Assembly (NCBI RefSeq): GCF_014280435.1 | Contig: NZ_CP060388.1 | Span: 310,001-374,000, forward strand | DNA: 64,000 nucleotides | Direction of reading: 5' to 3' | Source of the DNA: Sphingobium sp. KCTC 72723 | GTDB taxonomy: Bacteria; Pseudomonadota; Alphaproteobacteria; Sphingomonadales; Sphingomonadaceae | Part shown: positions 8,158 to 58,928 of the stretch, one piece after another | How the letters are laid out: each line of letters begins with the position of its first letter | How positions within the stretch are numbered: position 1 is the stretch's first letter | Notes under the pieces: generated by a model | Seen by the model: only the letters and a program-made list of their open reading frames with translations | Told to the model about the DNA's origin: nothing | Databases searched by the model: none | Translations under genes and position numbers: made by a program

Positions 8158-9586
8158 GATCGTGTCCCGCGGGATGGTGTAACAGCGGGTATCCTCGGTA
8201 GAGGATCGGACTGGATCAGGCTGCCACGCCGGGCAAACTGATGAGGGGATTGTCGCTGACGGTGGCGAGACTTTCAAGTGTCATATATCGGCGAGCCACG
8301 GCCCATTCGTCCTGCTGTTCGAGCATGAGGGCTCCGACGAGGCGTACAATGGCCGCGTCATTGGGAAAGATGCCGACAACGTCGGATCTTCGTTTGATCT
8401 CTCCGTTGAGACGTTCCAGGGGATTTGTGCTGGAAATCTGCGGCCAATGTTCTTTCGGGAAGGCTGTGTAGGCGAGGACGTCTTCGCGGGAGCCATCCAT
8501 CATCTCAGCAAGTTTGGGAGCGCGATCACGCAGGGCATCGGCGACTGTTTGCCATTGCTTATGAGCCTCCTGAGCAGTTTCCTGCGCGAAAATTGTCTTG
8601 ATCATGGCGGTGACGGCGGCACGCTGCTTAGTGGAAACATGGGCGAGCGCATTGCGCATCCAATGAATCCGACAGCGTTGCTGGGTTGCGTGGAAGACCT
8701 TGCTGGCAGCGGCGCGTAGGCCCTTGTGATCGTCTGCAATGACAAGTTTGACGCCCCTGAGCCCGCGATCGGCAAGAGAGCGCAAGAAGCCCTTCCAGAA
8801 GGTTTCGGCCTCGGTTGGCCCGGTGTCGACGCCCAGTATCTCGCGGCGGCCATCGTTGCTGACACCGACAGCTATTATCGTCGCGGTCGACACAATCCGG
8901 CCACCCTGGCGCGATTTGATGTAGGTCGCATCGAGCCACAGATAAGGGAATTCGCCCTCGATTGGCCTGTTGAGGAAAGCGTTAACCCGTTCGTCGATCT
9001 CTTGGATCAGTCGGCTGACGGCGCTCTTGGAGATGCCCGTAGCGCCCATGGCCTTCACGAGATTATCGACCGATCGCGTCGAAATGCCCTGGACATAGGC
9101 TTCCTGTATCACCGCCGTCAGGGCCTTCTCGGCAGTCCGGCGGGGTTCAAGGAAGGATGGGAAATACGATCCCTTGCGTAGCCGCGGGATCTCCAGTTCG
9201 ATGTGGCCGGCCCTGGTCTCCCAGGAACGCTCTCGATAGCCGTTGCGCTGGACCTGTCGCCCGGCAGGGTCGCGAGCGCCATGCGCGGCACCAGTCAGCA
9301 CCTGCACTTCAGCTTCCATCATTCGCTCAGCGGCAAATGCCAACATCTCGCGAACGAGATCTGCATCAGCGCCCTTTTCAACCAGCTCGATAAGGGCCAT
9401 TCTGTCTGTGGTCATCGTCGTCTCCGATAGGTTCATTGGTTTCGCAACCCGAACTCTACCGAAGATTGGCGATGGCCGCCTAGACAGAAGCCATGCCACC
9501 GTTGGGGCATGAAGCTCCGGTCGCTACGCTCCCTCCGCTTCACGCCCCAACGGTGACGCTGTTACACCACGTAACGGGACACGGCC
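8158..9586. mobile_element. IS256-family insertion sequence (1429 bp)
   Basis: Imperfect terminal inverted repeats match over about 27 bp (CGTGTCCCG, five mismatches, TGGTGTAACAGCG) at 8161-8187 and 9557-9583. It contains one transposase gene and is flanked by an exact 9-bp duplication, so the insertion is probably fairly recent. It separates the iteron region from the helicase gene of the prophage. Confidence 0.92.
8216..9415 (-). CDS. IS256-family (mutator-type) transposase
   Basis: A 399-residue DDE transposase. Asp in [12 protein letters not shown], Asp in [11 protein letters not shown] and Glu in [15 protein letters not shown] form the catalytic triad; the [12 protein letters not shown] helix is also typical. 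The ATG at 9415 is preferred because GGAG lies 7 nt upstream and the length is that of the family; longer in-frame starts exist at 9436 and 9499. No frameshift or stop is seen, so the enzyme looks active. Confidence 0.93.
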
Positions 9587-9742: not shown

Positions 9743-9780
9743 GTCCGCTGTGTGTCTCCAGTCCGCACAGCGGACTTTTT
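9743..9780 (+). terminator. Terminator/attenuator just upstream of helicase gene
   Basis: A 10-bp stem GTCCGCTGTG / CACAGCGGAC with a 13-nt loop and five T, ending 17 nt before the helicase ATG. Any promoter upstream of it must be read through, so it could act as an attenuator. Confidence 0.7.
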
Positions 9781-9797
9781 ATATCGAGGTTATCAAA

Positions 9798-11369
9798 ATG
9801 ACAAAAGAAGAAGGCGCAAAGCCTCAGACCGTTATCGAATTTCCTAAAGCAGCAACTCAGGTCGGACCTCTCGATCAGGAATATACCTGCTACAAGGATA
9901 AGCTCAACGGCATCATCACCTACCTAACTACCCAGAAACTCAGCAACGCATTCATCGACGGCAAGGGCGTCGTTAAGCTGCTCGACGGAAACGAGGATAA
10001 CACCGCGATCCGCACTTGGCTTGATGACAATGGCCTGTTGACCAAGGGTGCCTTCGATAAGGCTCTCAGGAAGCATGTCCGCGACACCATTGTCTATAAT
10101 GCCCTCGGTTTCATCCCTCAGAGCGTTCAGGACTTCGTGAAGCAGTATGCGGAGAAGCAGGGCATCACGCTAACCCCGAACGGAATGTTGAAGCGCCAGC
10201 GCGCCTACAAACTGATTAATCGCCATGGCAAGGCCGATGACGAAGTGAACCACCATAATTGCGACACCAGCGATGTGACTCGTCTGGTCTATGACGTAGC
10301 CAATACAGAGGGTGCCGATCTGGTCAGCTTCGGGCGCGAACTTCGCTTGGTGAACGACAATCTGAATCTCGGTTATCGCGACAGCGTTGTGACCGACGCA
10401 GTTGATGCTTGGCGCGAACAAGTCACCCTCGACATGAAGGTCGAACTGCTCCTTACCCTGAAATACGAGAAGGGCCGTGCGACCGGTCCAGCGGGTCAGG
10501 CCATGTGGGCAGACATGGAAGCTGCCTGCTTTGATACGTCAGATACCACCGCAGGCTTTCCCACGGCTGTCCTCAAAAAGTTCATGTGGCAGGTCAAGCG
10601 CAAGGCGCGCGGATTGACCGTTACCAATCACTTGATGCCGGTCCTATCGGGCGCTCAGGGTAAGGGTAAGACGCATTTCGTCCAGGCCATGACAAACCCG
10701 CTGGAGCATTTCAAACGTCAGGTGGATTTCAACATCATCACCGATGGCAAGACCGCTGACATTTGGTCCAGCCTGATCCTGTTTATCGATGAAATGGGCT
10801 TCTTCTCGAAGGCCGATGTGGACACGGTGAAGAATGTCATCACGGCTGAAAGTCGATCCATCCGCGCAATGCGTCAGAATAGCAGCGCGCCGATCCGTAA
10901 TCATGCGACGCTCATTGGCTGTACGAACAAAAGCCTTGGACAGCTTATCCGTGACGAAACCGGCGGTCGTCGTTTCGCTGAATTGGTATGGCGCAATGAT
11001 CCTAATTGGGATGCGCTAAATCAGGTCGATTGGGTGATGCTCTGGCAGAGCGTTGATGAAATGGGCGAAGACCCGTTAATTGCTGCGAACATGATGGAAC
11101 GCCTTCGTGAACAGCAGGAAGATAACCGAAACCAAAGCCCGATTGAGATTTGGGTTCGTGAAGAGGGCCACGTTTTCAAGAACTGGAAGCGCGCCAGCGA
11201 ACTACATTCACTCTACCGAGAATGGGAAAAGGAAGCATTTCCGCGTCAGGATACCAATCAGACGATGTTCGGTCGCAGCCTGACAAACCTCATCACAAGC
11301 ATTGAGGACTTCCCGTTCGAGAAGCAGCAACAGAGGGATGGCGTGAAATACCGCTACAGTGGCATTTAA
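9798..11369 (+). CDS. VapE-type (virulence-associated E) replicative helicase/ATPase
   Basis: A 523-residue protein with an N-terminal region of about 260 residues and a C-terminal P-loop ATPase of the VapE/DUF5906 type. The Walker A motif GAQGKGKT lies at about residues 285-292, Walker B in LILFIDEMG, the sensor in LIGCTNK, and an arginine-finger region in DETGGRRFAE. Such proteins act as phage or satellite replicative helicases. The ATG at 9798 has GAGG 8 nt upstream; the frame opens at 9750 but inside the terminator hairpin. It lies next to the candidate origin, from which IS256 now separates it. Confidence 0.82.
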   Translation: MTKEEGAKPQTVIEFPKAATQVGPLDQEYTCYKDKLNGIITYLTTQKLSNAFIDGKGVVKLLDGNEDNTAIRTWLDDNGLLTKGAFDKALRKHVRDTIVYNALGFIPQSVQDFVKQYAEKQGITLTPNGMLKRQRAYKLINRHGKADDEVNHHNCDTSDVTRLVYDVANTEGADLVSFGRELRLVNDNLNLGYRDSVVTDAVDAWREQVTLDMKVELLLTLKYEKGRATGPAGQAMWADMEAACFDTSDTTAGFPTAVLKKFMWQVKRKARGLTVTNHLMPVLSGAQGKGKTHFVQAMTNPLEHFKRQVDFNIITDGKTADIWSSLILFIDEMGFFSKADVDTVKNVITAESRSIRAMRQNSSAPIRNHATLIGCTNKSLGQLIRDETGGRRFAELVWRNDPNWDALNQVDWVMLWQSVDEMGEDPLIAANMMERLREQQEDNRNQSPIEIWVREEGHVFKNWKRASELHSLYREWEKEAFPRQDTNQTMFGRSLTNLITSIEDFPFEKQQQRDGVKYRYSGI

Positions 11370-36566: not shown

Positions 36567-37925
36567 TTAATTCCGCCACATACCACCGCTGCGCTTCACG
36601 GTCAGGCTGCCACCGCCACCACTCAGCTTCATCAATTCCGTTAGACCCCAGACAAGTGCATCCATGCGGTCAGGGGATTTCTTTGTTTCCGGCTTGTAGT
36701 CACACATTTGGCCTTCAAGTTCTTTGAAGCTATCTGTGTGGAAGACCTGTCCCTTCAAATAAAGCATCTGGACAGGTTCAGCGCGCAGGATTTTGCCGCG
36801 TGTCGCATTGACCATCTTGACCGGGATATTGCGGCGATGGGTACGAATGGTGTGTTCGACCATTTCGCCGCCGTAGTTCTTTTCCGCGACAACAAGGTCA
36901 GCATCCCACTTGTCATACATTTTGGATACTTCTGCTGCCCACTTCTCAGGCGTTCCCTTGATCGAAGCATCCTCAAGAACGTAGGCATGATTGTCCCAGC
37001 CCAACCCGACAACCACGATGCCGGTGTAGTCGCTGTTATTGCCCGATGAACCAGCAGGATCGACCGCGACGATGATGCGGACAAGGAAGTCCTTATTGAC
37101 CTCTTTGTATTTGAACATGCTCTTGCGGAAGAGCGCATTAGGGTTGTCGTCGCGCCACTGACCAATGAGGAAGCGGCTTTCCATGTTGGGGGAGCCGTCA
37201 TAACGCTCTGCTAGGTCTTCAAGGTAGCTCTCTTCCAGATTACCGGCGTTTTCCTGAGCCGGGAGAAACAGGCTCTTCCACTTGGGCTTGGCCTTATCGG
37301 TGAAAGGCTTGCCCGATGTGGGATGCACGTTGTCGATGAATGTGCGGTGTTCCCAATCTGACTTTAGATCAGGATTGCAATCAAACAGCATCAAGGCGCG
37401 GCTCATGACCGGCGAACCATCTGGATAGAAAACGGGCTTGCCGTTCCTGACCATCTGCGCACTGTCGGCCATACGAGACGCAAGCTGCTGGACTATCTCG
37501 TAGTCATCAATCTCGTTACATTCGTTGATCCACGCGGTAGCGTATTGCGCACCGAGAACCTTGTCGATGCGAGTAGGATCAAGCCCCTCAAAGAATATCT
37601 TGGACCCGTTGTGAAACTCAACGACATTATCGGCTTTGGCGATGCGGCTAACAAGGTCACGCTGCCAAGTCGGATACAGCATGTCCATAATTTCGGGGAA
37701 CGTGCCGTGGAACAGGTGACTGTGACAGCTACGCAGCGTCTTACGAAAGATCGCATGTTTGGTGCCGGGATACGCAATCGCACGATTGACGATGATAGAA
37801 GTCAGGATAGCGGACTTGCCTGAACGCGAAGGCCCAAAGGCAAGCAAGTTCTTCACATGCGGGTCATTCCACGCAATGTTTGTGAGCTTTAGCTGGGATG
37901 GGTTGATATTGAATGTCTTTGCCAT
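36567..37925 (-). CDS. Terminase large subunit
   Basis: A 452-residue packaging ATPase/nuclease. Walker A-like FGPSRSGKS lies at residues 30-38, Walker B-type ATAWINECNEI at about 130, and the RNase H-like nuclease starts with IIVAVDPAGSSGNNSDYTGIVVVG near 285 and later DAL (RMDALVWGL). The small subunit is about 1.9 kb away at 39807, separated by an HTH gene and a non-coding stretch. Confidence 0.93.
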   Translation of the reverse strand: MAKTFNINPSQLKLTNIAWNDPHVKNLLAFGPSRSGKSAILTSIIVNRAIAYPGTKHAIFRKTLRSCHSHLFHGTFPEIMDMLYPTWQRDLVSRIAKADNVVEFHNGSKIFFEGLDPTRIDKVLGAQYATAWINECNEIDDYEIVQQLASRMADSAQMVRNGKPVFYPDGSPVMSRALMLFDCNPDLKSDWEHRTFIDNVHPTSGKPFTDKAKPKWKSLFLPAQENAGNLEESYLEDLAERYDGSPNMESRFLIGQWRDDNPNALFRKSMFKYKEVNKDFLVRIIVAVDPAGSSGNNSDYTGIVVVGLGWDNHAYVLEDASIKGTPEKWAAEVSKMYDKWDADLVVAEKNYGGEMVEHTIRTHRRNIPVKMVNATRGKILRAEPVQMLYLKGQVFHTDSFKELEGQMCDYKPETKKSPDRMDALVWGLTELMKLSGGGGSLTVKRSGGMWRN

Positions 37926-37965
37926 CGACTAATTAGCCAAAGGCAAGATATTCCGTGCTGTGGTG

Positions 37966-37979
37966 TCACTCTTTGGTTG
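37966..37979 (+). promoter_or_regulatory. TCACTCTTTGGTTG element, copy 1
   Basis: Exact copy of the right-arm element, 47 nt before the ATG of the 29-aa peptide at 38027. Confidence 0.6.
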
Positions 37980-38026
37980 GAATATAGACTCAAAGACAGC
38001 ATAAGCTACGAGAAGGAGACGTAGCT

Positions 38027-38116
38027 ATGTGGAGCAATTTCAAGCCTTGGTCGTATGCAGAAGTAGCAGTGATCTTTGCGGTCGCTGTTTGCGCGGTTCT
38101 CTCAACCGGCGCTTAA
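38027..38116 (+). CDS. Single-span membrane micro-protein (29 aa)
   Basis: MWSNFKPWSYAEVAVIFAVA continues with VCAVLSTGA and TAA. AAGGAG lies 8 nt upstream and a clear terminator follows at 38131, making a compact monocistronic unit with its own upstream element. The peptide is one hydrophobic helix with a short aromatic N-terminus, of the size of small inner-membrane peptides. Possible roles are superinfection exclusion or toxicity, but none is shown. Confidence 0.65.
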   Translation: MWSNFKPWSYAEVAVIFAVAVCAVLSTGA

Positions 38117-38130
38117 ACGACAGGCAGCAA

Positions 38131-38156
38131 AAAGCCCCGGAGTGATCCGGGGCTTT
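38131..38156 (+). terminator. Intrinsic terminator after micro-protein
   Basis: An 11-bp stem AAAGCCCCGGA / TCCGGGGCTTT with GTGA loop; the T-run is short on the plus strand but stem strength is high. It can act in both directions. Confidence 0.8.
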
Positions 38157-38331
38157 CGTGGCGATTCATCTGCTTAACTGGTAATGCTCCCTTACGGCTT
38201 GCTGCCCAGCGTTCACATCATTCCGGCCCTATAGAATTCTACGGGAGGAACCCTGATGATGCAGCAGAAGCCTGAGCGATCCCGCGACAAACGGACCAAA
38301 GGAGTTTTGCAGCAGCCTTCTTGCCCGATAT

Positions 38332-38688
38332 TTAGTCATACTCGCCGTTGAGGATTTTCCCGACGGTGGACTGCGCGATGCCTAGCTGCTTGGCTATCTT
38401 ATCCTGAGATAGCGCAGCGCTCGACGCCTTCACGATATCCACCATTTCCATCGTCACACGACGACGCGGACTGCGCGTGTGAGCAACAGGCTTCTTGCGG
38501 GGCTTCGGTGGTGTAGCGGGCTTCTCAGGGCGCTTCTTTTTGGTCACGACCCGAACAGGCTTGCCGACTTTCTCGCCACGCTGATGCGCTCGCAACTGGT
38601 CTAGGCCGACAAGCTCAACATGCTCGCTGTAAGGCTCAGATAGCGCTTGGTCGTGGAAGGCTTGGTATGTGGGGAATTCTTCGGTCAT
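38332..38688 (-). CDS. HTH DNA-binding protein
   Basis: A 118-residue protein. A lysine/proline-rich basic centre (55-80) is followed by a C-terminal helix-turn-helix: MVDIVKASSAALSQDKIAKQLGIAQSTVGKILNGEYD. The HTH resembles those of resolvase/transposon regulators and phage regulators. It has a ~240-nt leader upstream with a minus-strand copy of the right-arm element. It is a candidate regulator of this prophage; it could also be a packaging factor given its place between the two terminase genes. Confidence 0.65.
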   Translation of the reverse strand: MTEEFPTYQAFHDQALSEPYSEHVELVGLDQLRAHQRGEKVGKPVRVVTKKKRPEKPATPPKPRKKPVAHTRSPRRRVTMEMVDIVKASSAALSQDKIAKQLGIAQSTVGKILNGEYD

Positions 38689-38930
38689 GCAGTAACTTAT
38701 CTGATGACCATTCCGGCAACCCGGATGGCTGACGAACTCAGTTTTTGGAAGTGAGTCTATATTTTTGAGCAGGGTGTCTGCGCTATCGGGTCACGATTGG
38801 AAATCTGAATACCCTAAGTATAATTCCGCGCATCCACAGCCCGCACAGGAAAGAGGGGTATACCCCGACCTTGGTTCACCATACCATACGCATGACCATA
38901 ATCTAACACTATAGCCGATGACTGAAATCG

Positions 38931-38944
38931 CAACCAAAGAGTGA
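38931..38944 (-). promoter_or_regulatory. TCACTCTTTGGTTG element, copy 2 (minus)
   Basis: Exact copy facing the HTH gene. GGCTATAGT lies 16 nt downstream, which would give TTGGTT-18-TATAGT as promoter-like hexamers. Confidence 0.55.
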
Positions 38945-39233
38945 CAAAAGAAATATCTTTTTATCTTTGCGACGAACCGTTGTGGAGAGTAGCAGTCTGG
39001 GAGCGGTATCTACCTGCTCGCATTACTACAATATCAACAATAGCATCGTATTACCAAATAGCGACATATCTTTGATGTTGACAAAATATATCTAGTGGTG
39101 AGCAACAGTCGAAAAGGTATGGTTTTCGTATATTATCCCTACCTCCAATGAGTGGTTGATTTGACATGCAGTGATGTTATGTAGAGTAGGCTAAAGTGTA
39201 GGCATTTTTCCTAGCGCGAAAAGCGACTTGGCA

Positions 39234-39247
39234 TCACTCTTTGGTTG
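39234..39247 (+). promoter_or_regulatory. TCACTCTTTGGTTG element, copy 3
   Basis: Exact copy, 48 nt before the ATG of the 24-codon frame at 39296; GGCTATAGG follows closely. Confidence 0.55.
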
Positions 39248-39295
39248 ATTAGGCTATAGGCTCTGCTACTGTTAAGTTGCAGGAGTACGACACCC

Positions 39296-39370
39296 ATGAA
39301 TGTCGTAGAATGTGGGTTGAACAGTCTGGTATTGTTCCTGCTTTGCACTCGCAAAAGTAGAAATCTGTAG
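39296..39370 (+). CDS. Possible hydrophobic micro-peptide (24 aa)
   Basis: MNVVECGLNSLVLFLLCTRK continues SRNL and stop. CAGGAG lies 9 nt before the ATG and a copy of the right-arm element 48 nt before, the same layout as the 29-aa peptide at 38027 and other right-arm genes. The short hydrophobic core suggests membrane association. Without that layout I would not call it. Confidence 0.4.
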   Translation: MNVVECGLNSLVLFLLCTRKSRNL

Positions 39371-39735
39371 ATTGCAGCGAAATAGTCTGAGCAACTATAT
39401 TACTCTTGCTCTCGCATACGACTTTGCGATTATTGCTCACTATCTAAGAACCATTCGCAGATAAGGAAATCTGTAGATTGTGGCCCAAACAGCCCAGATA
39501 GCTGCGGTCCCCGTAGATGCCCTGTAAAGCCCTCTAAGCACCGAGAGCTACCCGACTAGCGTAGGGTGCAGGAATTGTTCTCATAGACGCTCTACGGGCA
39601 TCGCAGAACAAGATAGCCCGATAGGATCGGGGGTGATGATCTATCGGGCTATCGGGCAAAGCGACCGTTGCTTGCAAACTGCTTTAATGCCGCACACCAT
39701 AGGATGCGACTGAAAAACGACTTGATACAAGAAAA

Positions 39736-39757
39736 CCCCTCCAACGAATTAGAGGGG
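39736..39757 (-). terminator. Terminator after small terminase gene
   Basis: A CCCCTC/GAGGGG stem with a TTTT run on the minus strand, 50 nt past the terS stop. Confidence 0.75.
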
Positions 39758-39806
39758 CTTCTTATTAGCGGTGATTTGAAAAACATTCTTCAAAAGTGCC
39801 TTCTAC

Positions 39807-40358
39807 TTATTCCTCTTCGTCAGGGTCGGACTGGTCCTCAATGATCGTGCCGGGAATAGAACCGAATGACCAATCTGGCATGGCTACTGGCTGCACGGTG
39901 ACATTGTGGTCAACCGACGAACTGTCCGCATACGCCTTACGGTTCGATCGAGCAGCAATCCACTTGATGTTGTCGGATAGCAACTTCTTCATCGCATCGC
40001 TTAGGCCATCCTCATACGGGATTTCATATAGGCGCTCGACCTGAGCATGTTGGCCTTGAGCGCAGGCAGCGGCGAGGTTCTTGTCGAACTCGTCATCCAT
40101 AGCTGCGAGGTTCCTGACAGAGCCGGGATTGACGCCAATGGATCGGCACACGCTGGTCAGCAACTCGCCCCCACGAATGCGGAACAAGATGATCTCGCGA
40201 TGCTCCAGACTGATCTTACGCCATCCATCGACTTCGCTCTCAGCTAGGTTACGGTCGGCTAATGCCGCTAATACCTTGCTGCCCTCTGCCGTCTTGGCAG
40301 CACAATGGATCGCTCTCTTGGAAGGCTCGTCTAATGGGGTGAGTTTTTTCTGCGCCAT
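39807..40358 (-). CDS. Terminase small subunit
   Basis: A 183-residue protein. GGELLTSVCRSIGVNPGSVRNLAAMDDEFDKNLAAACAQGQHA is the DNA-binding helix-turn-helix region, and LSDNIKWIAARSNRKAYADSSSVD matches the RLxxDxxKWxASKxxPKxYGD signature of Sf6-type small terminases. The acidic C-terminus (DQSDPDEEE) is also common. The ATG at 40358 has no Shine-Dalgarno sequence; TAAATA lies 5 nt upstream, as for the connector gene. Confidence 0.85.
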   Translation of the reverse strand: MAQKKLTPLDEPSKRAIHCAAKTAEGSKVLAALADRNLAESEVDGWRKISLEHREIILFRIRGGELLTSVCRSIGVNPGSVRNLAAMDDEFDKNLAAACAQGQHAQVERLYEIPYEDGLSDAMKKLLSDNIKWIAARSNRKAYADSSSVDHNVTVQPVAMPDWSFGSIPGTIIEDQSDPDEEE

Positions 40359-40363
40359 ACAGC

Positions 40364-40369
40364 TATTTA
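40364..40369 (-). promoter_or_regulatory. TAAATA motif 5 nt before terS ATG
   Basis: Minus-strand GGGTAAATAGCTGTATGG, same TAAATAGCTGTATGG as at 31591. Confidence 0.45.
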
Positions 40370-40548
40370 CCCACTCTGGTCGGCTCATTCGTCACCAGAC
40401 ATTGGATCACTGTTCCTGGGTTTAGCCTAGATGCCAGCAAACATTGGACCATGGGGCTGTCTGAGGGTTTCCTGACCCTATGCGGCCTGTGGATAAGTCT
40501 GTGGATAAATGGAAAAAGCCCACCAGACTTAACCAGTGGGCTGCTCCT

Positions 40549-40965
40549 TTATTTGCCCCCGAACGTCAGCTTGAACAGGGTAGCAGTCTCGCTATCGTCA
40601 ATTGCGATCACAACATAGCCACGACCATAGAAGTCATCTGAGTAAGAGAGAATATGATCTAATGCCCATTTCGGTGTGCATCCTTTTTCGTCATATTGCT
40701 TGTTTAACCATTCCCCCCAAACCTCATTTTGCATACCATCACTAACAGCATATAAATTGATCATGCCTACGCTATTGATGATTGAATATCCCTCTTCAAT
40801 CATCTTCTTGTATCCATCTTCTAACTCTTCTGGAGCAGGATAAAGCTGGGGATCAATGCTACATTCAAATAAGTGGACGCTGATTTTTACCATCTTCTTA
40901 GCTGCTCGATCAAAGCGATCTTCCAAGCGGGTATTTCGATATGTGACGAGGGGAGTGTTGCTCAT
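40549..40965 (-). CDS. Small right-arm protein with FKL C-terminus (A)
   Basis: A 138-residue protein (SNTPLVTYRNTRLEDRFDRA...). It ends GYVVIAIDDSETATLFKLTFGGK, a strand followed by an A-x-x-FKL-x-F helix/strand that two other nearby genes share. GGGAGG precedes the ATG at 40965, which overlaps the upstream stop (TAATG). No known family. Confidence 0.65.
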   Translation of the reverse strand: MSNTPLVTYRNTRLEDRFDRAAKKMVKISVHLFECSIDPQLYPAPEELEDGYKKMIEEGYSIINSVGMINLYAVSDGMQNEVWGEWLNKQYDEKGCTPKWALDHILSYSDDFYGRGYVVIAIDDSETATLFKLTFGGK

Positions 40966-41486
40966 TATGCGGCCTCCCATTCTGCGCGAAATTGTCCGGC
41001 GGTTTTTGCGTAGGTGATCGCCTTGGGATTATCGAAACGGATACGACCAACGACCCAGCCATCTGCTGTCAGGGCTTCATAGGAATATCGGTTTTTGTCG
41101 GCCCACTGCTTGACGGCACATGCCTCAAATACGAGTTCTGACCACCAACATCCTAGCGCATACATACCTCGCTGCATTTGCTTCCGCGTGTCGCTCTTGC
41201 CGAACTTGCTCATGTCGAGCGTATGGTTTGCCATAGCTTCCCAGAAGTTCATGAAGAGGTCTTTGCTCTCATCGGCCAGCGAGATAACGAATATCGAAGG
41301 CGTCAAGCTGTCTTGCCTTACCGTCACATGGAAGCCGCCTTGTTTCAGGAAGATCGCTTCGAGTTTATGCCAGGCGTTCATAAACTCGCTGCTGATGACC
41401 TCCTGTGCTTTTTTGGTAATCCGGTGCGGCTGCAAAAGGATGTCGATCTGCCCGGCAAGCAGAATGTCCTGAGTGAAATTGTCCAT
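40965..41486 (-). CDS. Hypothetical right-arm protein (B)
   Basis: A 173-residue protein (DNFTQDILLAGQIDILLQPHRITKKAQEV... to FRAEWEAA). It shares GGAGGCCGCAT-type leader sequence with its downstream neighbour and overlaps its upstream neighbour's stop. It lacks the exact FKL ending but has a comparable C-terminal strand-helix (WVVGRIRFDNPKAITYAKTAGQFRAEW). Function unknown. Confidence 0.65.
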   Translation of the reverse strand: MDNFTQDILLAGQIDILLQPHRITKKAQEVISSEFMNAWHKLEAIFLKQGGFHVTVRQDSLTPSIFVISLADESKDLFMNFWEAMANHTLDMSKFGKSDTRKQMQRGMYALGCWWSELVFEACAVKQWADKNRYSYEALTADGWVVGRIRFDNPKAITYAKTAGQFRAEWEAA

Positions 41487-41938
41487 CATGCGGCCTCCTT
41501 CTTATCGAAGGCCAGCTTGAACATCAGCGCTTGTTCAGGCTTTGTGAACGTCACCAGAACTTCTTCGGTGCGCCTGCTGTAGGACTTTGCATCAACGCTG
41601 TAGCGGAACTTTGCTTCCTTGGCCGTCCTGAGTGCAATCGTGCGTTCGGCGGCATCCTTGATGCGCTTGTGATAGAACTGCTTTTCGAGGCGCTTTTTAT
41701 CAGCAGCCGTCATCAGCTTCAAAGGCTGTGGCAGTCCTAGTCCGAGATACCAGTTTTGGGTCTTCCCTTGGTCGTCTACATAGACGTTAAAGCCCTTTGC
41801 GCTGTAGAAGTCTGCGAACTGGTCGCGCAGTCTTTCGGCTGCACCTTCTTCGCCATACATTTGCTCTTGATCGAGTGTCGCGAAAATGTCGTCCTTGATC
41901 GTCAGAGCAATCGTCTTATCGTCCACAAACCTAAACAT
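41486..41938 (-). CDS. Small right-arm protein with FKL C-terminus (C)
   Basis: A 150-residue protein starting FRFVDDKTIALTIKDD after Met. It has a basic helix in the middle (KKRLEKQFYHKRIKDAAERTI) and ends EEVLVTFTKPEQALMFKLAFDKKEAA. GGGAG precedes the ATG at 41938; the longer frame to 42028 lacks a ribosome site. It is the first of three coupled genes. Confidence 0.65.
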   Translation of the reverse strand: MFRFVDDKTIALTIKDDIFATLDQEQMYGEEGAAERLRDQFADFYSAKGFNVYVDDQGKTQNWYLGLGLPQPLKLMTAADKKRLEKQFYHKRIKDAAERTIALRTAKEAKFRYSVDAKSYSRRTEEVLVTFTKPEQALMFKLAFDKKEAA

Positions 41939-42097
41939 TCTAAACTCCCTTTGCTGTTTCATTCCATAGGCTGACTTCCGTTCGCGTCTGGTGAAACTGC
42001 ATATGGTCCATGTTTTGGTATCGGTCAATGGTATTTTGCAATGGTGTGGTCGATTGATGGTTAACGGGTTATGGTCGGCGCATTGGTGTGCTGTTAT

Positions 42098-42143
42098 TGT
42101 GTCAACGGGAATTGGTTGAAAATAATCAGTGTCAACGGTTTTG
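42098..42143. repeat. Two GTGTCAACGG direct repeats
   Basis: The 10-mer GTGTCAACGG occurs twice (about 42098 and 42131) within the 275-bp gap between the divergent genes at 41938 and 42214. It may be an operator pair for these divergent promoters. A TATAAAT -10-like sequence follows at about 42171 for the plus-strand gene. Confidence 0.4.
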
Positions 42144-42213
42144 TGGCCCCTTGCGCCGGGTTTGGTCTGCTATAAATTGGGCTTGGCAACAGCGCCGATA
42201 GAAAGGAAGTCCA

Positions 42214-42423
42214 ATGATCGTGCATGGTAGTGAGACGTATCGGGATGGGGATTTGCAGTTCCTCATGGAACAGGATGGTCGGGAGTATCGCTGCGGGGTA
42301 GCGAGCTATATCCTCGATAATCCTGATCGGGATAACGCGGCTGCAACATTGGCGCGGAACTGGTCGCTCGTGAAAGACGGCTTCAATAAGCTGGTCGGTC
42401 CTGCGTATCATCGACTGGCCTAA
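42214..42423 (+). CDS. Small hypothetical protein (69 aa)
   Basis: A 69-residue protein (IVHGSETYRDGDLQFLMEQDG..., ending LVGPAYHRLA). AAAGGAAG lies 5 nt before the ATG and a TATAAAT promoter-like element about 40 nt upstream. It is divergent from the 41938 gene. No family recognised. Confidence 0.6.
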   Translation: MIVHGSETYRDGDLQFLMEQDGREYRCGVASYILDNPDRDNAAATLARNWSLVKDGFNKLVGPAYHRLA

Positions 42424-42469
42424 GTGACATCGGGCAGCGGGGGGGCTGCTCAATCCAGTTTCGGTCCAG

Positions 42470-42724
42470 TCATCGCTTGAATTCCTGAAATCTCAAGCAT
42501 TCCGCCTTTAGCTCTGCGAATGTATCTTTGAGGGCAGTGGGGTTGTCGCAATCGTCCCATAGTTCGCTGAGTTGATCGGCGGTGAGGATCAGGTTCCAGC
42601 GCAGTCCGATGCGGAGACGATATTCGTCCTGGGTGCAAACGAATGTCTCGACCTTGACGCCTAGCGCCTTGGAGAGGCCACGCTCGACATCGAAACATTG
42701 GGCGTCAGGTGGAACGCTGCTCAT
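42470..42724 (-). CDS. Small hypothetical protein (84 aa)
   Basis: An 84-residue protein (SSVPPDAQCFDVERGLSKALGVKVETFVCTQDEYRLRIG..., ending LRFQEFKR). The ATG at 42724 overlaps the previous stop (ATGA), so it is the third gene of a coupled three-gene operon. The longer open frame to 43021 covers the other two genes in another frame and is not used. Confidence 0.65.
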   Translation of the reverse strand: MSSVPPDAQCFDVERGLSKALGVKVETFVCTQDEYRLRIGLRWNLILTADQLSELWDDCDNPTALKDTFAELKAECLRFQEFKR

Positions 42725-42882
42725 TCGTCGTCCTGCAAGCGATGCTTGCGATCTTGTCGTTCGGCTTCCCGCTGTTTGGATCGGGTGGCACAGTATTCGC
42801 AGTTCGGTGACGGACAGCCCCATTCCCATTCTTTGAGCTTTTTCCAATGATGCTTGATTTTGCGATGAAACGATCTGCTCAC
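42721..42882 (-). CDS. Small cysteine-containing basic protein (53 aa)
   Basis: The GTG at 42882 overlaps the upstream stop (GTGA) and its TGA overlaps the downstream ATG, so it is coupled on both sides. The product reads MSRSFHRKIKHHWKKLKEWE, then WGCPSPNCEYCATRSKQREA..., with a CPSPNCEYC motif that could bind zinc and very basic flanks. Nucleic-acid binding is plausible but unproven. Confidence 0.6.
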   Translation of the reverse strand: MSRSFHRKIKHHWKKLKEWEWGCPSPNCEYCATRSKQREAERQDRKHRLQDDE

Positions 42883-43358
42883 GGCTGGGCATCCTCACCG
42901 GGACGCTTCCACATCGCCAGCTTGAACATGATCGCATCGTTCTTATCCGCAAATCGGACCAGATAGCTTTTGATGCCACGCTGTAACGATGCTCCCCATG
43001 CTTCACGGGTGATGCCCGCATTATTGACGCCTCCCTGAATTGCGATCCTATTCAGCAATCGGCGGCTGCATGTTGCCGGTGTTCCCAACACAGTGATGTG
43101 AATGCGCTCATTGCTGTCGGTTTGGATTAGCGCTGCGCGCTCGGCCTCTTCTGTGACCTGATGATCGTCACCGGACTGGATAGCATCTTGTTCAGCGGCT
43201 GCGATTTTAGCTGCTCGCCATTCCTCGATCGACAGCCCGTCGATTGTTTCAACGGTGCTGATTATGAATTTACCAGATGCAACGCTCTTCAGGTATTCGG
43301 CTACATCGTCATATTCGAGAGTGTTGACATTGAACTTGAATGGATAGAGGTCTTGCAT
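42879..43358 (-). CDS. Small right-arm protein with FKL C-terminus (D)
   Basis: A 159-residue protein (QDLYPFKFNVNTLEYDDVAEYLKSVASGKFIISTVETIDG... ). It ends KSYLVRFADKNDAIMFKLAMWKRPGEDAQP, the third member of the FKL family. CAGGAGT lies 8 nt before the ATG and a TAAATA site 34 nt upstream. First gene of the coupled operon. Confidence 0.65.
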   Translation of the reverse strand: MQDLYPFKFNVNTLEYDDVAEYLKSVASGKFIISTVETIDGLSIEEWRAAKIAAAEQDAIQSGDDHQVTEEAERAALIQTDSNERIHITVLGTPATCSRRLLNRIAIQGGVNNAGITREAWGASLQRGIKSYLVRFADKNDAIMFKLAMWKRPGEDAQP

Positions 43359-43392
43359 ATTTCAACTCCTGCAATTTGTTTTTCGTCGCAGG

Positions 43393-43398
43393 TATTTA
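43393..43398 (-). promoter_or_regulatory. TAAATA motif upstream of 43358
   Basis: Minus-strand CGATAAATACCTGCG, 34 nt before the ATG. Confidence 0.4.
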
Positions 43399-43425
43399 TC
43401 GAGAGACAAAAGGTCCGGTTTTGAG

Positions 43426-43439
43426 TCACTTTATGGCTG
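43426..43439 (+). promoter_or_regulatory. TCACTTTATGGCTG element, copy 4 (variant)
   Basis: Three mismatches to the consensus, 52 nt before the recombinase ATG at 43492. Confidence 0.45.
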
Positions 43440-43491
43440 ACGCCGGAATCAAAAGGCTGCAACAGTGTTGAGCAACAAAGGAGTTCAACAC

Positions 43492-44016
43492 ATGCAAGCG
43501 CCGATTTTGGATGAAGAGCAGTTTGCTACCGTGCTGCAATTTGCTCGCAATATGCAGCGCGCACCAATGTATAGCTTGATGATCTTGCTTTCTAAAAAGC
43601 TAGGTCTGCGCCCGATGGAAATCGCTGGTCTGGAAACAAGCTGGTTCGTAGGTCAGTCGCTTCGTATCCCGTTGGGACATTCTAAGCGCAAGCAAGGGCG
43701 CACTTTACCCGTAGATCAAGAAATCCTGACCGCACTCGATAAGCACATGCAGGGCAGGGAAGGGCGCATATTTCGCAATGCTGCTGGGGACGCTTTCACA
43801 GCAAATGGTATCTCTGAGGCTATTCGACGCATTTACCGACTGTCCGGCGTTCAGGGTAGCTGCTACTCAGGTCGTCGGACGATGGCGACCAACTTAGTTG
43901 ATAACAAGGTTAACATTTTGGTGGTTCAAAAGCTGCTAGGGCATTCCTCGCCGGTTACAACAATGAACTATGTTGGAGTTTCTGAGCGCATGATGCGCGA
44001 AGCACTTTTTGGATAA
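43492..44016 (+). CDS. Minimal tyrosine recombinase-like protein
   Basis: A 174-residue protein consisting only of the catalytic domain of the XerC/D-lambda integrase fold. Catalytic Arg40 lies in LGLRPMEIAGL, a basic KQGRTLPVD turn follows, then YSGRRTMATNLV in place of HxxR, LLGHSSPVTTMNYVGV with His and nucleophile Tyr160. The N-terminal core-binding domain is missing and the first histidine of the HxxR box is Tyr, so activity is uncertain. AAGGAG lies 9 nt before the ATG. The prophage integrase proper is the serine enzyme at 45420. Confidence 0.8.
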   Translation: MQAPILDEEQFATVLQFARNMQRAPMYSLMILLSKKLGLRPMEIAGLETSWFVGQSLRIPLGHSKRKQGRTLPVDQEILTALDKHMQGREGRIFRNAAGDAFTANGISEAIRRIYRLSGVQGSCYSGRRTMATNLVDNKVNILVVQKLLGHSSPVTTMNYVGVSERMMREALFG

Positions 44017-44018
44017 AG

Positions 44019-44032
44019 TCACTTTTTGGTTG
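44019..44032 (+). promoter_or_regulatory. TCACTTTTTGGTTG element, copy 5
   Basis: One mismatch to the consensus; 70 nt before the ATG at 44103. Confidence 0.5.
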
Positions 44033-44102
44033 CACTAGGTATCAATTGGGCTTTTATGTCCTCAAACGCAGCGCGTGGTGCTGCACATTATGGAGATCGA
44101 AC

Positions 44103-44492
44103 ATGGCACTGGATTGGAAGAAGACCGTACAAGCAGCAAGCAAGGTCGAGGGCTTTAACGCTTCGGCACAGCGCGCCCCTAAGACGGCTCAGGAAGTCGT
44201 TGCTGCCGCGATTGACCGTCAAATCGAACTGTTCAACAAGCCCAAGACGGAAGGCCGTCGCTGGTTCGAAATAGTCGGTGACAACGTGGGCTTCGCTATC
44301 CGCTACGCTAACTCGCCGTTGAAGCTCGTCGGTGACGAAACGAAGGTCGTCGTGCCGAAAGCGCAGTTCGTTGAGGTCATGGAAGCCATCAAAGCCGACA
44401 TTCTCAAGGGCGATTTCAAAGCGCAGTTGGACGCCGGTGAAGCCAAAGTTCGCACCCGTGCAGAGAAGATCAAAGGTGTGAAGCGCAAGTAA
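44103..44492 (+). CDS. Hypothetical basic protein (129 aa)
   Basis: A 129-residue protein (ALDWKKTVQAASKVEGFNASAQRAPKTAQEV..., FEIVGDNVGFAIRYANSPLKLVG, ending RAEKIKGVKRK). It is lysine-rich at both ends. GGAG lies 8 nt before the ATG and a strong terminator follows, so it is monocistronic. It looks like a DNA- or RNA-associated protein but no family is recognised. Confidence 0.65.
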   Translation: MALDWKKTVQAASKVEGFNASAQRAPKTAQEVVAAAIDRQIELFNKPKTEGRRWFEIVGDNVGFAIRYANSPLKLVGDETKVVVPKAQFVEVMEAIKADILKGDFKAQLDAGEAKVRTRAEKIKGVKRK

Positions 44493-44514
44493 GCGCCTAA
44501 CCCGACAACAAAAC

Positions 44515-44542
44515 GGCTCGCCAGCGATGGCGGGCCTTTTTT
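44515..44542 (+). terminator. Intrinsic terminator after 44103-44492
   Basis: GGCTCGCC-AGCGAT-GGCGGGCC with one G-T pair and six T. Confidence 0.85.
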
Positions 44543-44652
44543 GTGACTGCGCTACCTTGTGTTCGTGGAGAAAGCTGGACCATTTCTGACCCAGCTTCCC
44601 CTTTGGCAATCAGCCTAAAATGACGAAAACCGATTGCCTGCTATTTAACAGC

Positions 44653-45006
44653 TTATGCCCGAATTGCCCCTGCGGACCTCGCTTGTGCTGCATATTCCGA
44701 TAGCGTGTGCTTGGCCGTCCAGTAGCGATCCTGTTCTATATGAAGCCCACCGGGCAGCTTAACGGCAAACACTTCCTCAAGCGAAATGTAGCCGAGTTCG
44801 GGATAGCCCGTGTCCGATAATCCGAAGGCCAGGCCATCGTTATCGCACTCCGTGAGAAGCCATGTCCCTATGCCCAGCGGGTTAAACAGTTTGACTACCG
44901 GGTTGTAGTCTCGCTCCTGAGAAGTCCCTTTGAGGGGCAATTGCTCTTCCCAATTTATGATTAGCTGTTGCAGGTCGTCGGGTCGGATATGATCTGTCCA
45001 TTCCAT
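44653..45006 (-). CDS. DUF2958 domain protein
   Basis: A 117-residue protein. VVKLFNPLGIGTWLLTECDNDGLAFGLSDTGYPELGYISLEEVFAVKLPGGLHIEQD follows the DUF2958 signature closely. DUF2958 proteins are found on plasmids, phages and integrative elements; the biochemical role is not known. The ATG at 45006 has AAGGA 11 nt upstream. A partial element TCACTCTTT faces it at 45099-45107. Confidence 0.82.
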   Translation of the reverse strand: MEWTDHIRPDDLQQLIINWEEQLPLKGTSQERDYNPVVKLFNPLGIGTWLLTECDNDGLAFGLSDTGYPELGYISLEEVFAVKLPGGLHIEQDRYWTAKHTLSEYAAQARSAGAIRA

Positions 45007-45114
45007 TGTAGGCACGTCCTTTCTGGTTGAAGTGCCTCAGGACATGCAAAGCCATTTGGGCTGGAAATCAACCAAATTACGACTACAGACTGGAAATAAA
45101 GAGTGATACAAAGT

Positions 45115-45128
45115 TCACTCTTTGGATG
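45115..45128 (+). promoter_or_regulatory. TCACTCTTTGGATG element, copy 6
   Basis: One mismatch to the consensus, 46 nt before the ATG at 45175; a partial inverted copy AAAGAGTGA lies just upstream at 45099-45107, making a divergent pair. Confidence 0.55.
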
Positions 45129-45174
45129 ACTGCTTCCCTGACTGAAAACATACAGTTGGGGAAGGAGACAACAA

Positions 45175-45354
45175 ATGCAGATCGACCTCAACGCACTTGC
45201 TAATTTTGTAGAACGGACGCTCGATTGCAGCCCAGACTTCGAGGATGATGCTTTCGCTTTCGACTTCCAAGACCATCGCATTTACTGCGAACGCAAGCGT
45301 TACTGTTTTGATCTGCACGTTGGTTCAGAAGTGCTGCAAATACCGCGTCACTGA
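45175..45354 (+). CDS. Small acidic hypothetical protein (59 aa)
   Basis: MQIDLNALANFVERTLDCSP leads into an acidic EDDAFAFDFQDHRIY and a cysteine/basic end. AAGGAG lies 8 nt before the ATG; the right-arm element is upstream and a terminator downstream. Function unknown. Confidence 0.65.
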   Translation: MQIDLNALANFVERTLDCSPDFEDDAFAFDFQDHRIYCERKRYCFDLHVGSEVLQIPRH

Positions 45355-45382
45355 TCCCCGTCGAAGCCCACACAGAACAAAG

Positions 45383-45411
45383 AAGCCCCGGCATGTTGTG
45401 CAGGGGCTTTC
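45383..45411. terminator. Terminator between convergent 59-aa gene and integrase
   Basis: AAGCCCC/GGGGCTT stem with TTTCTT on the plus side; may serve both directions. Confidence 0.75.
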
Positions 45412-45419
45412 TTGTGCCT

Positions 45420-47045
45420 TCAGTTTAAGATCGGCTCACAGGGTGTCGATGCACCTTCCAGCATCGTCCCTGCTTCATCGAACATATACCATGCGCCACC
45501 TTCCAACGAGATTTTGAATGTGCCGTTGGAGTAGATTTCGATCCTGTCGATGAGGCGGCGCAGCGCAACATTGGTTCGCGTCCGCGCATCAAAGCGGACT
45601 TCCTCGTCCTTGCTGTTGATAGCATCGCGCAGAAGGTCAATGGCTGCGGTGTCAGCAGACTTGTCAGGCATTGCGGCTTGAATCCCGCGTTGCCTTCTAA
45701 GTTCAGCTATTTCCAACGTGAGGGTTTCAATCTCCGCCTCTACCTTCATCGAGCGCGTAGCTAACGCTTTCGGGGCAATGCCCTCCGTGATGGCATCAAG
45801 TATGTTGTCCAGCGCCTTTTGCTGCGCGTCCAGTTTGTGCTGCGCCTCGGCTATCTGACGGTCAAAGGACGCAAGCGCGTTGTTTATGTTCCCGTTGTCC
45901 GCAATGACGGGAAGCAGTTCATCCAGCACCGTGCTTTCTACAACGCCGTAGTGGATGGTCGCATTGTTGGTGCAAGCATTGTCCTTGTAACGTGCGTCGT
46001 TACAGCGCAGCCAAGAATAGTGACGCGGTGGCCTCTTTTTGTTGACCATCGTGCGGCGTTGGATGACCGCACCATATCCGCAATGACCGCATTTAGTGAT
46101 TCCCGAAAACAAGTTCTGCGCTCGCTTTCGTTCATCGCCGCCTAGCGTTGTCCGATCTTTCCGAACCGATAGCGCCTTGTGGAATGTGTGGGCATCTACG
46201 ATCTGCGGATAATAATCTGTCGAAAGCACTTCGCCTTTGAGCGTTACATATTCGCCGATCACTGCCGGGCTGGTCAGCAGCTTGTGCAGGTAGCGAGGCG
46301 TCCAGTGCTTCTTGTCCTTATACCGTTTTTCGATGGACCAGCTTTTCTCGCCCAGACCATTCAGGCGATCAATTATCGTCAGGCTTCCAATCCCGTTAAC
46401 ATACCAATCGAATATCTGGCGGACGAGGGCTGCTCGATGCTCGTTCGGGACATAGACGCCTCCCTGAATGTCGAGCCATGAAGGACATTGCTTGCTGTAT
46501 GCCGTCTTGTCGCCGTTTGCGATTGCCGTGTGAATGCGCGTCCAACCTGCATTCGAGAGGCGGCTTTTGTTCAAGCTCTCCTCATGGGAGGTCTGGGCCT
46601 TAATGATGAGGCCGAAAACGTCCATCAGGTCAGCGTCGTTTCCCGCTTTGTAGAGGTGGTTGTCATGATAGGTGGCGACATCAACACCGGCTTCATTAAG
46701 CGCCCATACGAGACGCGCAGCGGCTTTTGGGCCTTGTCGGGATAGGCGTGACACATTCTCGCAGACTAGCACCGCGCCATTTTCAAAATGGCCCTCACGC
46801 GCTTTGCGCTCGAATTCGTACAGGGCTGAACCATCCTCGCGGTTCGCCCCTTTGAATGCGGACTTAGCCTCGTCCGTCATTTCCTCAACCACTGTCCAGC
46901 CGTGTTGGTCGGCGTGGGTGCGCCCGTAAGTAAGCTGGCGCTCGATGCTGTGTCCGTCGCGCTGGCCGTGCGAGCTAAAGCGTGCGTAAAGGTAAGCTGG
47001 CTTAGTTTCGGTTGCGGCAACTATATGCGAATTGTGTTTGACCAT
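45420..47045 (-). CDS. int: Large serine recombinase (prophage integrase)
   Basis: A 541-residue enzyme. The N-terminal resolvase domain has catalytic Ser24 in YARFSSHGQRDGHSIERQ and VCENVSRLSR. A recombinase domain follows (about 170-300), then a zinc beta-ribbon with KCGHCGYG and RCNDARYKDNACTN (about 315-375), then a coiled coil (about 395-460), the order of phiC31/Bxb1-type integrases. AGGA lies 4 nt before the ATG, 49 bp from the attR core. No recombination directionality factor was recognised. Confidence 0.95.
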   Translation of the reverse strand: MVKHNSHIVAATETKPAYLYARFSSHGQRDGHSIERQLTYGRTHADQHGWTVVEEMTDEAKSAFKGANREDGSALYEFERKAREGHFENGAVLVCENVSRLSRQGPKAAARLVWALNEAGVDVATYHDNHLYKAGNDADLMDVFGLIIKAQTSHEESLNKSRLSNAGWTRIHTAIANGDKTAYSKQCPSWLDIQGGVYVPNEHRAALVRQIFDWYVNGIGSLTIIDRLNGLGEKSWSIEKRYKDKKHWTPRYLHKLLTSPAVIGEYVTLKGEVLSTDYYPQIVDAHTFHKALSVRKDRTTLGGDERKRAQNLFSGITKCGHCGYGAVIQRRTMVNKKRPPRHYSWLRCNDARYKDNACTNNATIHYGVVESTVLDELLPVIADNGNINNALASFDRQIAEAQHKLDAQQKALDNILDAITEGIAPKALATRSMKVEAEIETLTLEIAELRRQRGIQAAMPDKSADTAAIDLLRDAINSKDEEVRFDARTRTNVALRRLIDRIEIYSNGTFKISLEGGAWYMFDEAGTMLEGASTPCEPILN

Positions 47046-58055: not shown

Positions 58056-58928
58056 ATGGCTGCATCGGAATATGCCGCACCAAGGCCAAACATTGTTGCA
58101 GAGATAAATTCTATTAACGATGCTATTGAGTATTTTGATAAATTAAAATCACGAAAATACCCATTAAATGTATTTCGAGGTCATGCTAATATTGATTGGG
58201 ATGTTGTCCCAAGTATATTTCGCGATGATATGAACGTATTAGAGCATGAAAGCAAAGTGATAAGGGATTTAATAGCTTCGTACCCATCTGAATTTGATCA
58301 AGATAAATCCATGTTCGATCATTTGGTGCGGATGCAGCATTTTGGTTTGAGAACCTGTCTGATGGACGTTTCTCGAAATCCTCTAGCGGCATTGTATTTT
58401 GCTGTCGAAGATGGAGAATGCAATTCTGACGATGGCTCCGTTCTTGTTTCAGAAGTTCCTGAGGAAAGAATAAAGTATTATGACAGTGACTCTATAAGTT
58501 GTATATCAAATCTTGCAAATTTATCAAATGAAGAAAAAACAACAATAGAAAACACTTCTGCAAGAACAATAAAAGAGCTTCATCAACTAAATTCTATTGA
58601 TAGGCTGTATCAATTTATAAGGTCGGAAAAGCCAGAATTTAGACCTAGAATAAAAAAAGAAGATTTGTTTAAACCATATTTTGTTTATCCAAAGATGAAT
58701 AATAAAAGAATCGTTGCTCAGAGTGGGGCCTTCATAATTTTCGGTTTGAACCGATCAAAGGGTCCCGATTATAAAAAAGGAATAACGGTACAAATGGCCG
58801 CAATTCCATCGAGATCAAAATCTAAAATAAGAGACAGTCTTAAAAGGCTTGGATACGATGACAGCACTCTGTTTCCAGATATCGAAAGGTCCGCAAAGCA
58901 AATAATGAAAAACTATGCTCAATATTGA
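58056..58928 (+). CDS. FRG-domain protein, horizontally acquired
   Basis: A 290-residue protein. VFRGHANIDWDVVPSIFR (FRG motif near residue 41), then MFDHLVRMQHFGLRTCLMDVSRNPLAALYFAVE and VAQSGAFIIFGLNRSKG are diagnostic of the FRG domain (PF08867). The gene is far richer in A+T than its neighbours, with many ATA and AAA codons, so it was probably acquired recently. It lies after a toxin-antitoxin pair. FRG proteins are often found in mobile and defence contexts; activity here is unknown. Confidence 0.85.
   Translation: MAASEYAAPRPNIVAEINSINDAIEYFDKLKSRKYPLNVFRGHANIDWDVVPSIFRDDMNVLEHESKVIRDLIASYPSEFDQDKSMFDHLVRMQHFGLRTCLMDVSRNPLAALYFAVEDGECNSDDGSVLVSEVPEERIKYYDSDSISCISNLANLSNEEKTTIENTSARTIKELHQLNSIDRLYQFIRSEKPEFRPRIKKEDLFKPYFVYPKMNNKRIVAQSGAFIIFGLNRSKGPDYKKGITVQMAAIPSRSKSKIRDSLKRLGYDDSTLFPDIERSAKQIMKNYAQY

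Follow-up and report, generated by a model that had tools for sequence, protein, structure and literature searches.

In cluster A mycobacteriophages such as L5, operators and stoperators are repeated asymmetric 13–14-mers that lie between genes and are oriented with transcription (PMC9283540). T4 middle promoters carry a MotA box that replaces the −35 hexamer, centred at −30 and 12 bp from the −10 hexamer (PMC2988021), and CtrA-controlled genes in phages of Alphaproteobacteria have a common regulatory site (PMC9437464). Here we analyse a 14-letter element, TCACTCTTTGGTTG, that recurs in the right arm of a prophage of Sphingobium sp. KCTC 72723, within a 64,000-nucleotide stretch of contig NZ_CP060388.1 that we call the window and number from its first letter. 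In our reading the element supplies the upstream half of a bipartite promoter before conserved small genes in a family of Sphingobium-type prophages. We conclude that small genes of these phages have a genuine promoter class that spans the family; the host's own RNA polymerase probably reads it, helped or blocked by a putative regulator.

We compared 56 promoters in 22 groups across related prophages. Computed without the window, the family consensus is CAGTCTTTGG-TTGACC-N11-TGGC-NN-CATATA, which reads as a −35 hexamer (TTGACC), a 17-bp spacer and a −10 hexamer (CATATA), with a box abutting the −35 and a TGRC block before the −10. Its core, TTGACC-N17-CATATA, follows the sigma-70 type rule of hexamers 16–18 bp apart. 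Taking CATATA as the −10, the box would span roughly −45 to −36 and TGRC roughly −18 to −15; transcripts are predicted to start near 38012, 43472, 44065 and 45161 on the plus strand and near 45036 on the minus strand. The upstream regions of the small genes have GG[A/T]TG followed, after 20 intervening nt, by CATA or a like string; G at position 20 (1.63 bit) and R at position 21 (0.90 bit) are about as conserved as the −35, and columns of the box, none of them seeded in the model, reach 0.67 bit. Promoter function is well supported by these sequence comparisons. Host sigma-70 promoters are alike in their TTGACC-like −35, 17-bp spacer, CATATA-like −10 and short leader to the ribosome site, and the host tRNA-Met promoter (one of 7 tRNA genes, judged by eye) has the same core layout without TGRC, TTGACC-N17-TATAGC. 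The prophage sites differ in adding the abutting box and TGRC, and no comparable whole site was found in a 400-kb host sample. A generic TTGACA/TATAAT scan picked none of the five window promoters, whose individual sites match that consensus poorly.

The element resembles the L5 sites in being a repeated, asymmetric, intergenic 13–14-mer oriented with transcription. It differs in number (about 6 sites, against more than 20) and in position: L5 has many sites genome-wide, also off promoters, whereas every close copy here save that at 38931 fits a promoter-like layout, the five sites with at most one mismatch are confined to 7.2 kb, and the box is not clearly phage-specific. As in T4 middle promoters, a phage box stands beside a host −10 and is common to a gene set; unlike in T4, the −35 is kept and the box would lie at about −40 (−45 to −36). 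CtrA-controlled phage genes are similar in that a common regulatory site serves phages of this bacterial class, but no TTAA-N7-TTAA occurs in 37801–45500. The short separate units also recall moron genes, the 29-amino-acid (aa), 129-aa and 59-aa genes each appearing from sequence to have their own promoter and terminator-like hairpin. Unlike in morons, one promoter is repeated over several genes whose order is conserved across the family, and the wide conservation of the small genes speaks against their being dispensable for the phage.

The copies of the element were re-found as the original prediction gave them: exact at 37966 (+), 38931 (−) and 39234 (+), with one mismatch at 44019 (+) and 45115 (+), and as a variant with three mismatches at 43426 (+). 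Re-measured from coordinates, its end lies 46–70 nt before the start codon of five plus-strand frames, as claimed. In the whole 4.43-Mb genome there are five matches with at most one mismatch, all inside the same 7.2 kb, and five more with two mismatches, all outside it. With up to three mismatches the window holds 8 matches against 4.57 expected, a number that 10 of 100 shuffles reach, so the weak copies carry no weight by number alone. Recent duplication of whole segments, which the original prediction had set against itself, was rejected when the flanks were checked: the common stretch is only 14–19 bp (one pair agrees over 29 nt at 72%), and the copies are therefore not derived from longer segments. 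The search of related prophages that it had proposed found the element there as the upstream half of the family promoter. One common promoter-type element before mostly small right-arm genes thus stands, whereas the idea that it is peculiar to this prophage does not. A 24-aa frame that had been counted among the controlled genes drops out, its best relative reaching only E 0.33 in the relatives searched, against a conserved 29-aa peptide. In the papers searched we met no description of the motif and no match to the 14-mer; the coverage leaves out most subscription papers, which makes this weak support for its being unpublished.

Five query proteins (terminase, 129-aa, 59-aa, DUF2958 and recombinase) brought up the relatives in IMG/VR, GTDB and further genomes; their loci carry L numbers below. 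The dominant spacing was measured in two ways. In a first version with 51 upstream regions, DUF2958 not included, 33 passed both thresholds and 14 of these 33 had a gap of 20, against a mean of 0.32 and a largest value of 4 in shuffles. A held-out version divided 97 regions below 70% identity by locus and placed the second block at the same offset in 22/38 and 21/40 cases, compared with 1/38 and 2/40 in another-sequence controls; the two halves may still have some ancestry in common in these counts. A full model was built on 103 regions, five of them from the window; started from GGxTG and CATA anchors at gap 20, it finds the motif at a posterior of at least 0.5 in 82. A window-free model was trained on 96 upstream regions of relatives, with the window and its near relative L055 excluded. 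Its top five sites in the 64 kb are the promoters of the 129-aa (23.7), 59-aa (23.5), DUF2958 (21.4), 29-aa (20.8) and recombinase (17.7) genes; the sixth scores 14.3. A scan of 400 kb of host sequence with the complete motif gives a best site of 15.2 and none that reaches 17, so none equals the window's five. The five genes, with DUF2958 on the minus strand, are supported as members of the proposed promoter set. Five unknown or little-known conserved small genes are thereby tied into one likely regulon, the motif model offers a search tool for promoters in sphingomonad prophages, and the exact predicted start sites are open to confirmation by RNA.

Several observations weigh against this account or qualify it. 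In 21 of the 103 regions the motif is absent; these include the 39234 copy and window position 42214. The full model was seeded with anchors first spotted by eye. In 30 shuffled windows the best site averages 13.9 and once reaches 22.4; single scores of 17–22 are therefore not decisive, and the case rests on the five sites together. Base composition depresses the host scores, since that sample has 63% G+C against 51%. The −10 matches of the recombinase and 129-aa promoters are weak. A shortened motif, matched exactly, has six matches in the genome, only one within the prophage, so it is not specific by itself, and a gap scan of two short blocks peaks at the N20-equivalent gap (184.8) with gap 10 near it (180.2), a result confounded by ribosome sites. 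Finally, the box is not clearly more alike within prophages than between them, which weakens a phage-specific regulator: over the 56 promoters, box similarity is 0.434 within and 0.399 between prophages (p = 0.088), and it is 0.70 within this prophage. Within prophages, likeness is clearer for the −35 (p = 0.016), for the spacer (p = 0.006) and for the sequence farther upstream (p = 0.036) than for the box, and this test gave the box no clear support as a prophage-specific operator.

With these points allowed for, we regard it as likely that a family promoter, the host polymerase and a common box-binding protein together account for the sites. The promoter would consist of a regulator box, CAnTCTTTGG, at about −45 to −36, a TTGACC-like −35, a 17-bp spacer with TGRC and a CATATA-like −10. 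The comparison shows the sequence, its dominant spacing, its conservation and its absence from the host sample; we infer the sigma factor, the start sites, and the regulator and its sign as follows. Host RNA polymerase with its housekeeping sigma factor would start five short units (29-aa peptide, tyrosine recombinase, 129-aa, 59-aa and DUF2958) 14–38 nt before their start codons, and three of these would end in their own terminator-like hairpin. A common putative protein would most likely bind the box beside the −35, as an activator in the class II position or as a repressor, and such binding would switch the small genes together.

The box could alternatively be an asymmetric prophage-repressor site that overlaps the −35 and silences the five genes in the lysogen, as the L5 operators and stoperators do. 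Its orientation toward the downstream frame in intergenic gaps, its near-uniformity in this prophage and the different boxes of a second prophage in the same genome (L069) all suit such an operator; the lack of clear family-wide coherence within prophages, the scarcity of close copies outside promoter-like layouts (38931 only) and the lack of an assigned repressor make it rather unlikely. A better claim, though still one that we would not favour, is that no special regulator exists and that the box and TGRC extend a strong constitutive promoter of moron-like cassettes expressed in the lysogen. This fits the match of the core to TTGACC-N17-CATATA and the arrangement in short separate units, three with their own terminator-like hairpins, and it sits poorly with the absence of any site scoring at least 17 in the 400 kb of host DNA, although only the whole motif was scanned there. 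Neither CA-T-T-TGG upstream of the −35 nor TGRC is known as part of a housekeeping promoter, which also counts against a constitutive promoter.

A phage-encoded or recruited specificity factor, either an alternative sigma or an agent of sigma appropriation like T4 MotA/AsiA, might read the two blocks. Their one dominant distance and the conservation of G20 and R21, about that of the −35, speak for such a factor. We consider it improbable: the core agrees with housekeeping spacing, no sigma-like Pfam family appears among the 20 window proteins scanned (covering some of the prophage proteins), and the MotA box has its centre at −30, at 12 bp from the −10 (PMC2988021), not at about −40. The inverted exact copies at 38931 (−) and 39234 (+), which flank an AT-rich segment near a recombinase consisting of the catalytic domain only, raise the idea that the copies are half-sites of that minimal tyrosine recombinase and bound an invertible segment of 289 bp. 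This is hardly credible, as the promoters are present in L061, L063 and L065–L067, where no recombinase relative was found, recombination sites would not be expected to keep one dominant distance to the −10 and start codon, and the one near-identical record, L013, probably from the same genome, has the segment in the same orientation.

As a check, the original prediction had proposed gel shifts with the helix-turn-helix (HTH) protein at 38332–38688. Among the relatives searched, its own relatives are clear in L093 and L095 alone and weak in L015 (E 0.002); the promoters are far more widespread, so this protein is unlikely to be the common regulator. In 37801–45500, strings for EcfG, sigma-54 and T4-late promoters have no match, a LexA-type (SOS) GTTC-N7-GTTC occurs once, at 41560 (−) and at none of the promoters, and the string TAAATA occurs four times on the minus strand.

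The first promoter of the set (37967–38005, +) has its box, CACTCTTTGG, at 37967–37976, −35 TTGGAA at 37977–37982 and −10 CATAAG at 38000–38005. Gap 20 is also found before the orthologous gene in L011, L014, L056, L057, L058 and L059, and the same gap scan did not see it in L015 and L016. The gene (38027–38116, +) encodes a 29-aa peptide, by eye a one-helix membrane peptide, with relatives at nine loci by tblastn (E ≤ 0.01; L090 duplicates L089) and, by position, in L014 and L016. It is followed by a terminator-like hairpin at 38130–38157 (+), the stretch 38121–38165 folding at −24.2 kcal/mol. A hairpin stands at the equivalent place in L011, L014, L016, L056, L089 and L093; no strong one was found in the L015 stretch, which was folded in truncated form.

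The recombinase promoter (43427–43465, +) joins the variant at 43426 and GGCTG at 43435 to a −10-like CAACAG at 43460–43465. By eye it is about 11 bp longer than in L056 and L093, and the added bases hold the box. The gene (43492–44016, +) encodes a minimal tyrosine recombinase of 174 aa (PF00589, E 2e-18; alignment A4). It is followed by the 129-aa gene promoter (44020–44058, +), with its element at 44019 and a −10-like TTTATG at 44053–44058; between the window and L011, GGTTG-N20-TTTATGTCC is kept, yet only 6 of the 20 spacer bases agree. The conserved 129-aa phage protein (44103–44492, +) has 99 proteins listed at E ≤ 0.001, the window's own counted, among 8000 candidates scored. Its predicted structure (mean predicted local distance difference test score (pLDDT) 78, predicted template modelling score (pTM) 0.62) is a fold without known match: none was found in PDB or among viral folds at E ≤ 0.001, and no Pfam family matched. 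A terminator-like hairpin with a T run follows at 44515–44542 (+). In L071, L072, L074 and L076 (near 4800) and in L085 and L086, a longer paralogue of 168–185 aa with an added C-terminal part comes after the 129-aa gene.

The DUF2958 promoter (45043–45081, −) has its box, CGTAATTTGG, at 45081–45072, −35 TTGATT at 45071–45066 and a −10-like TGCATG at 45048–45043. It is the third best in the window, and GGTTGATTTCC is kept in L011. The protein of 117 aa (44656–45006, −) matches PF11171 with E 9e-29. In the 59-aa promoter (45116–45154, +), the element at 45115 is joined to −10 CATACA at 45149–45154. The conserved 59-aa phage protein (45175–45354, +) has 14 relatives that are 36–78% identical (alignment A1). 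Its predicted structure (mean pLDDT 87, pTM 0.69) has no PDB fold match at E ≤ 0.001, and no Pfam family matched; with no PDB match for either this or the 129-aa structure, there is no hint of DNA binding. Its terminator-like hairpin lies at 45381–45415 (+), within a stretch (45375–45420) that folds at −22.0 kcal/mol. On the minus strand at 40549–43358, several small proteins end alike (FKLTFGG, FKLAFDK, FKLAMWK), and by eye such frames occur in L011 and L016 too; they may form a paralogous family.

The partial divergent copy that had been said to face the DUF2958 gene, at 45093 (−), turned out to contain the left arm of a palindrome, AAAGAGTG-N10-CACTCTTT (45098–45123), whose right arm lies within the 59-aa promoter box. 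The best DUF2958 promoter match is instead at 45073 (−), with AATTTGGTTG, a site that had been missed. The palindrome is probably a DNA site because it is located between the two predicted divergent promoters. The intergenic region of L055 differs from that of the window at 12 of 168 bases, four of which lie in the spacer that separates the 8-bp arms, and the arms themselves are unchanged; L055 breaks a ninth pair that the window has, and one difference falls in the DUF2958 box. The orientation of the box also varies among relatives. Before their 129-aa genes, L012, L060 and L065 carry a box that is exactly reverse-complemented (CCAAAGAGTG) and offset by one base, and a reversed box with one mismatch is found in the 129-aa promoters of L066, L067, L069, L072 and L076 and in the 59-aa promoters of L066 and L067. 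The reversed 129-aa boxes are orthologous and perhaps stem from one event, so we do not count them as independent evidence. They hint that a protein might read the box in either orientation. It is a doubtful, though conceivable, extension that this prophage family has its own transcription class, in which a phage protein would read an 8–10-bp box either way (CACTCTTTGG / CCAAAGAGTG) together with TGRC and would govern one regulon of tiny genes.

The remaining two exact copies behave differently. That at 39234 (39234–39272, +) belongs to a second spacing class, GGTTG-N16-TGCTAC, with an extended −10, TGC-TACTGT. The pattern GGTTG-N16-TG[CT]TA[TC] occurs seven times in 751 kb of relatives plus the window, against a mean of 0.6 per gap at 16 other gaps, and has no match in the 400-kb host sample; L016 has an eighth site, which starts with GCTCG. 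A sister site, AATGAGTGGTTG-N16-TGTTATG (39147–39181, +; 39154), lies upstream of it, in a stretch conserved with L093 and L095. Downstream of the 39234 copy, 39265–39770 (+) is probably a non-coding structured region: it folds better than shuffles (z −4.2), holds no conserved small frame, has short stretches conserved in L011 and L062, and ends near a hairpin at 39732–39764. It could be an RNA or a packaging site, adjoining the small terminase gene. The copy at 38931–38944 (−) lies about 240 nt from 38688, where the HTH gene starts, the next such start taken into account on its strand. It has no −10 at either conserved distance; TATAGT stands 17 nt past its GGTTG, a spacing that is not conserved. 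A near-palindrome, GCGACGANYCGTTGC, occurs near some promoters and in the relatives' non-coding region and is a possible operator. The window has one copy with one mismatch (38969), and 16 with up to three mismatches, against 11.4 in shuffles. Sites were noted at window 38969, L016 8595, L092 2439 and 8904, L093 2363, L096 10871, and L099 2870 and 10640.

The regulon lies in a prophage right arm that also contains, on the minus strand, a terminase-type large subunit related to phage terminases (36567–37925), an Sf6-type terminase small subunit and a large serine integrase (45420–47045), besides the tyrosine recombinase and DUF2958 genes. The series 29-aa, recombinase, 129-aa, DUF2958 (reverse), 59-aa and serine integrase is kept in L056–L059; several relatives keep the full small-gene series and others keep part. 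A relative of the 129-aa protein is present in 15 of 94 genomes of the genus, its own genome counted. The second related prophage in the same genome (L069; G000 C1:792000–811000) has some of the same gene types and different boxes. Near-identical upstream regions were merged, from 122 to 103 (full model), 113 to 96 (window-free model) and 120 to 97 (held-out spacing); for the within/between-prophage box test, 93 sites became 56 after removal of near-identical ones, sites scoring below 7 being dropped as well. The 103-region, 56-promoter and held-out counts also leave aside host XerD-like hits (L060, L062), the L055 129-aa region (5′ part missing), the distant L087 and L100, duplicate records (L070, L073, L075, L080, L083, L090), the L069 DUF2958 hits and one doubled L016 row. 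L013, L077–L079, L088, L091 and L098, repeats of the window or of other loci, were left out of the counts of relatives.

Elsewhere in the window, its left end holds a Pycsar pair (535–1756, −), the cyclase PycC (PADLOC, E 1e-102) and a two-helix membrane effector PycTM (PF18967, E 3e-11). The protein at 58056–58928 (+) matches the PADLOC candidate defence family PDC-S15 (E 1e-103) and probably lies outside the prophage because it is to the right of the serine integrase. In the left arm, a frame at 8216–9499 (−), by eye like an insertion-sequence transposase, adjoins a VapE/DUF5906 replication-type protein at 9750–11369 (+).

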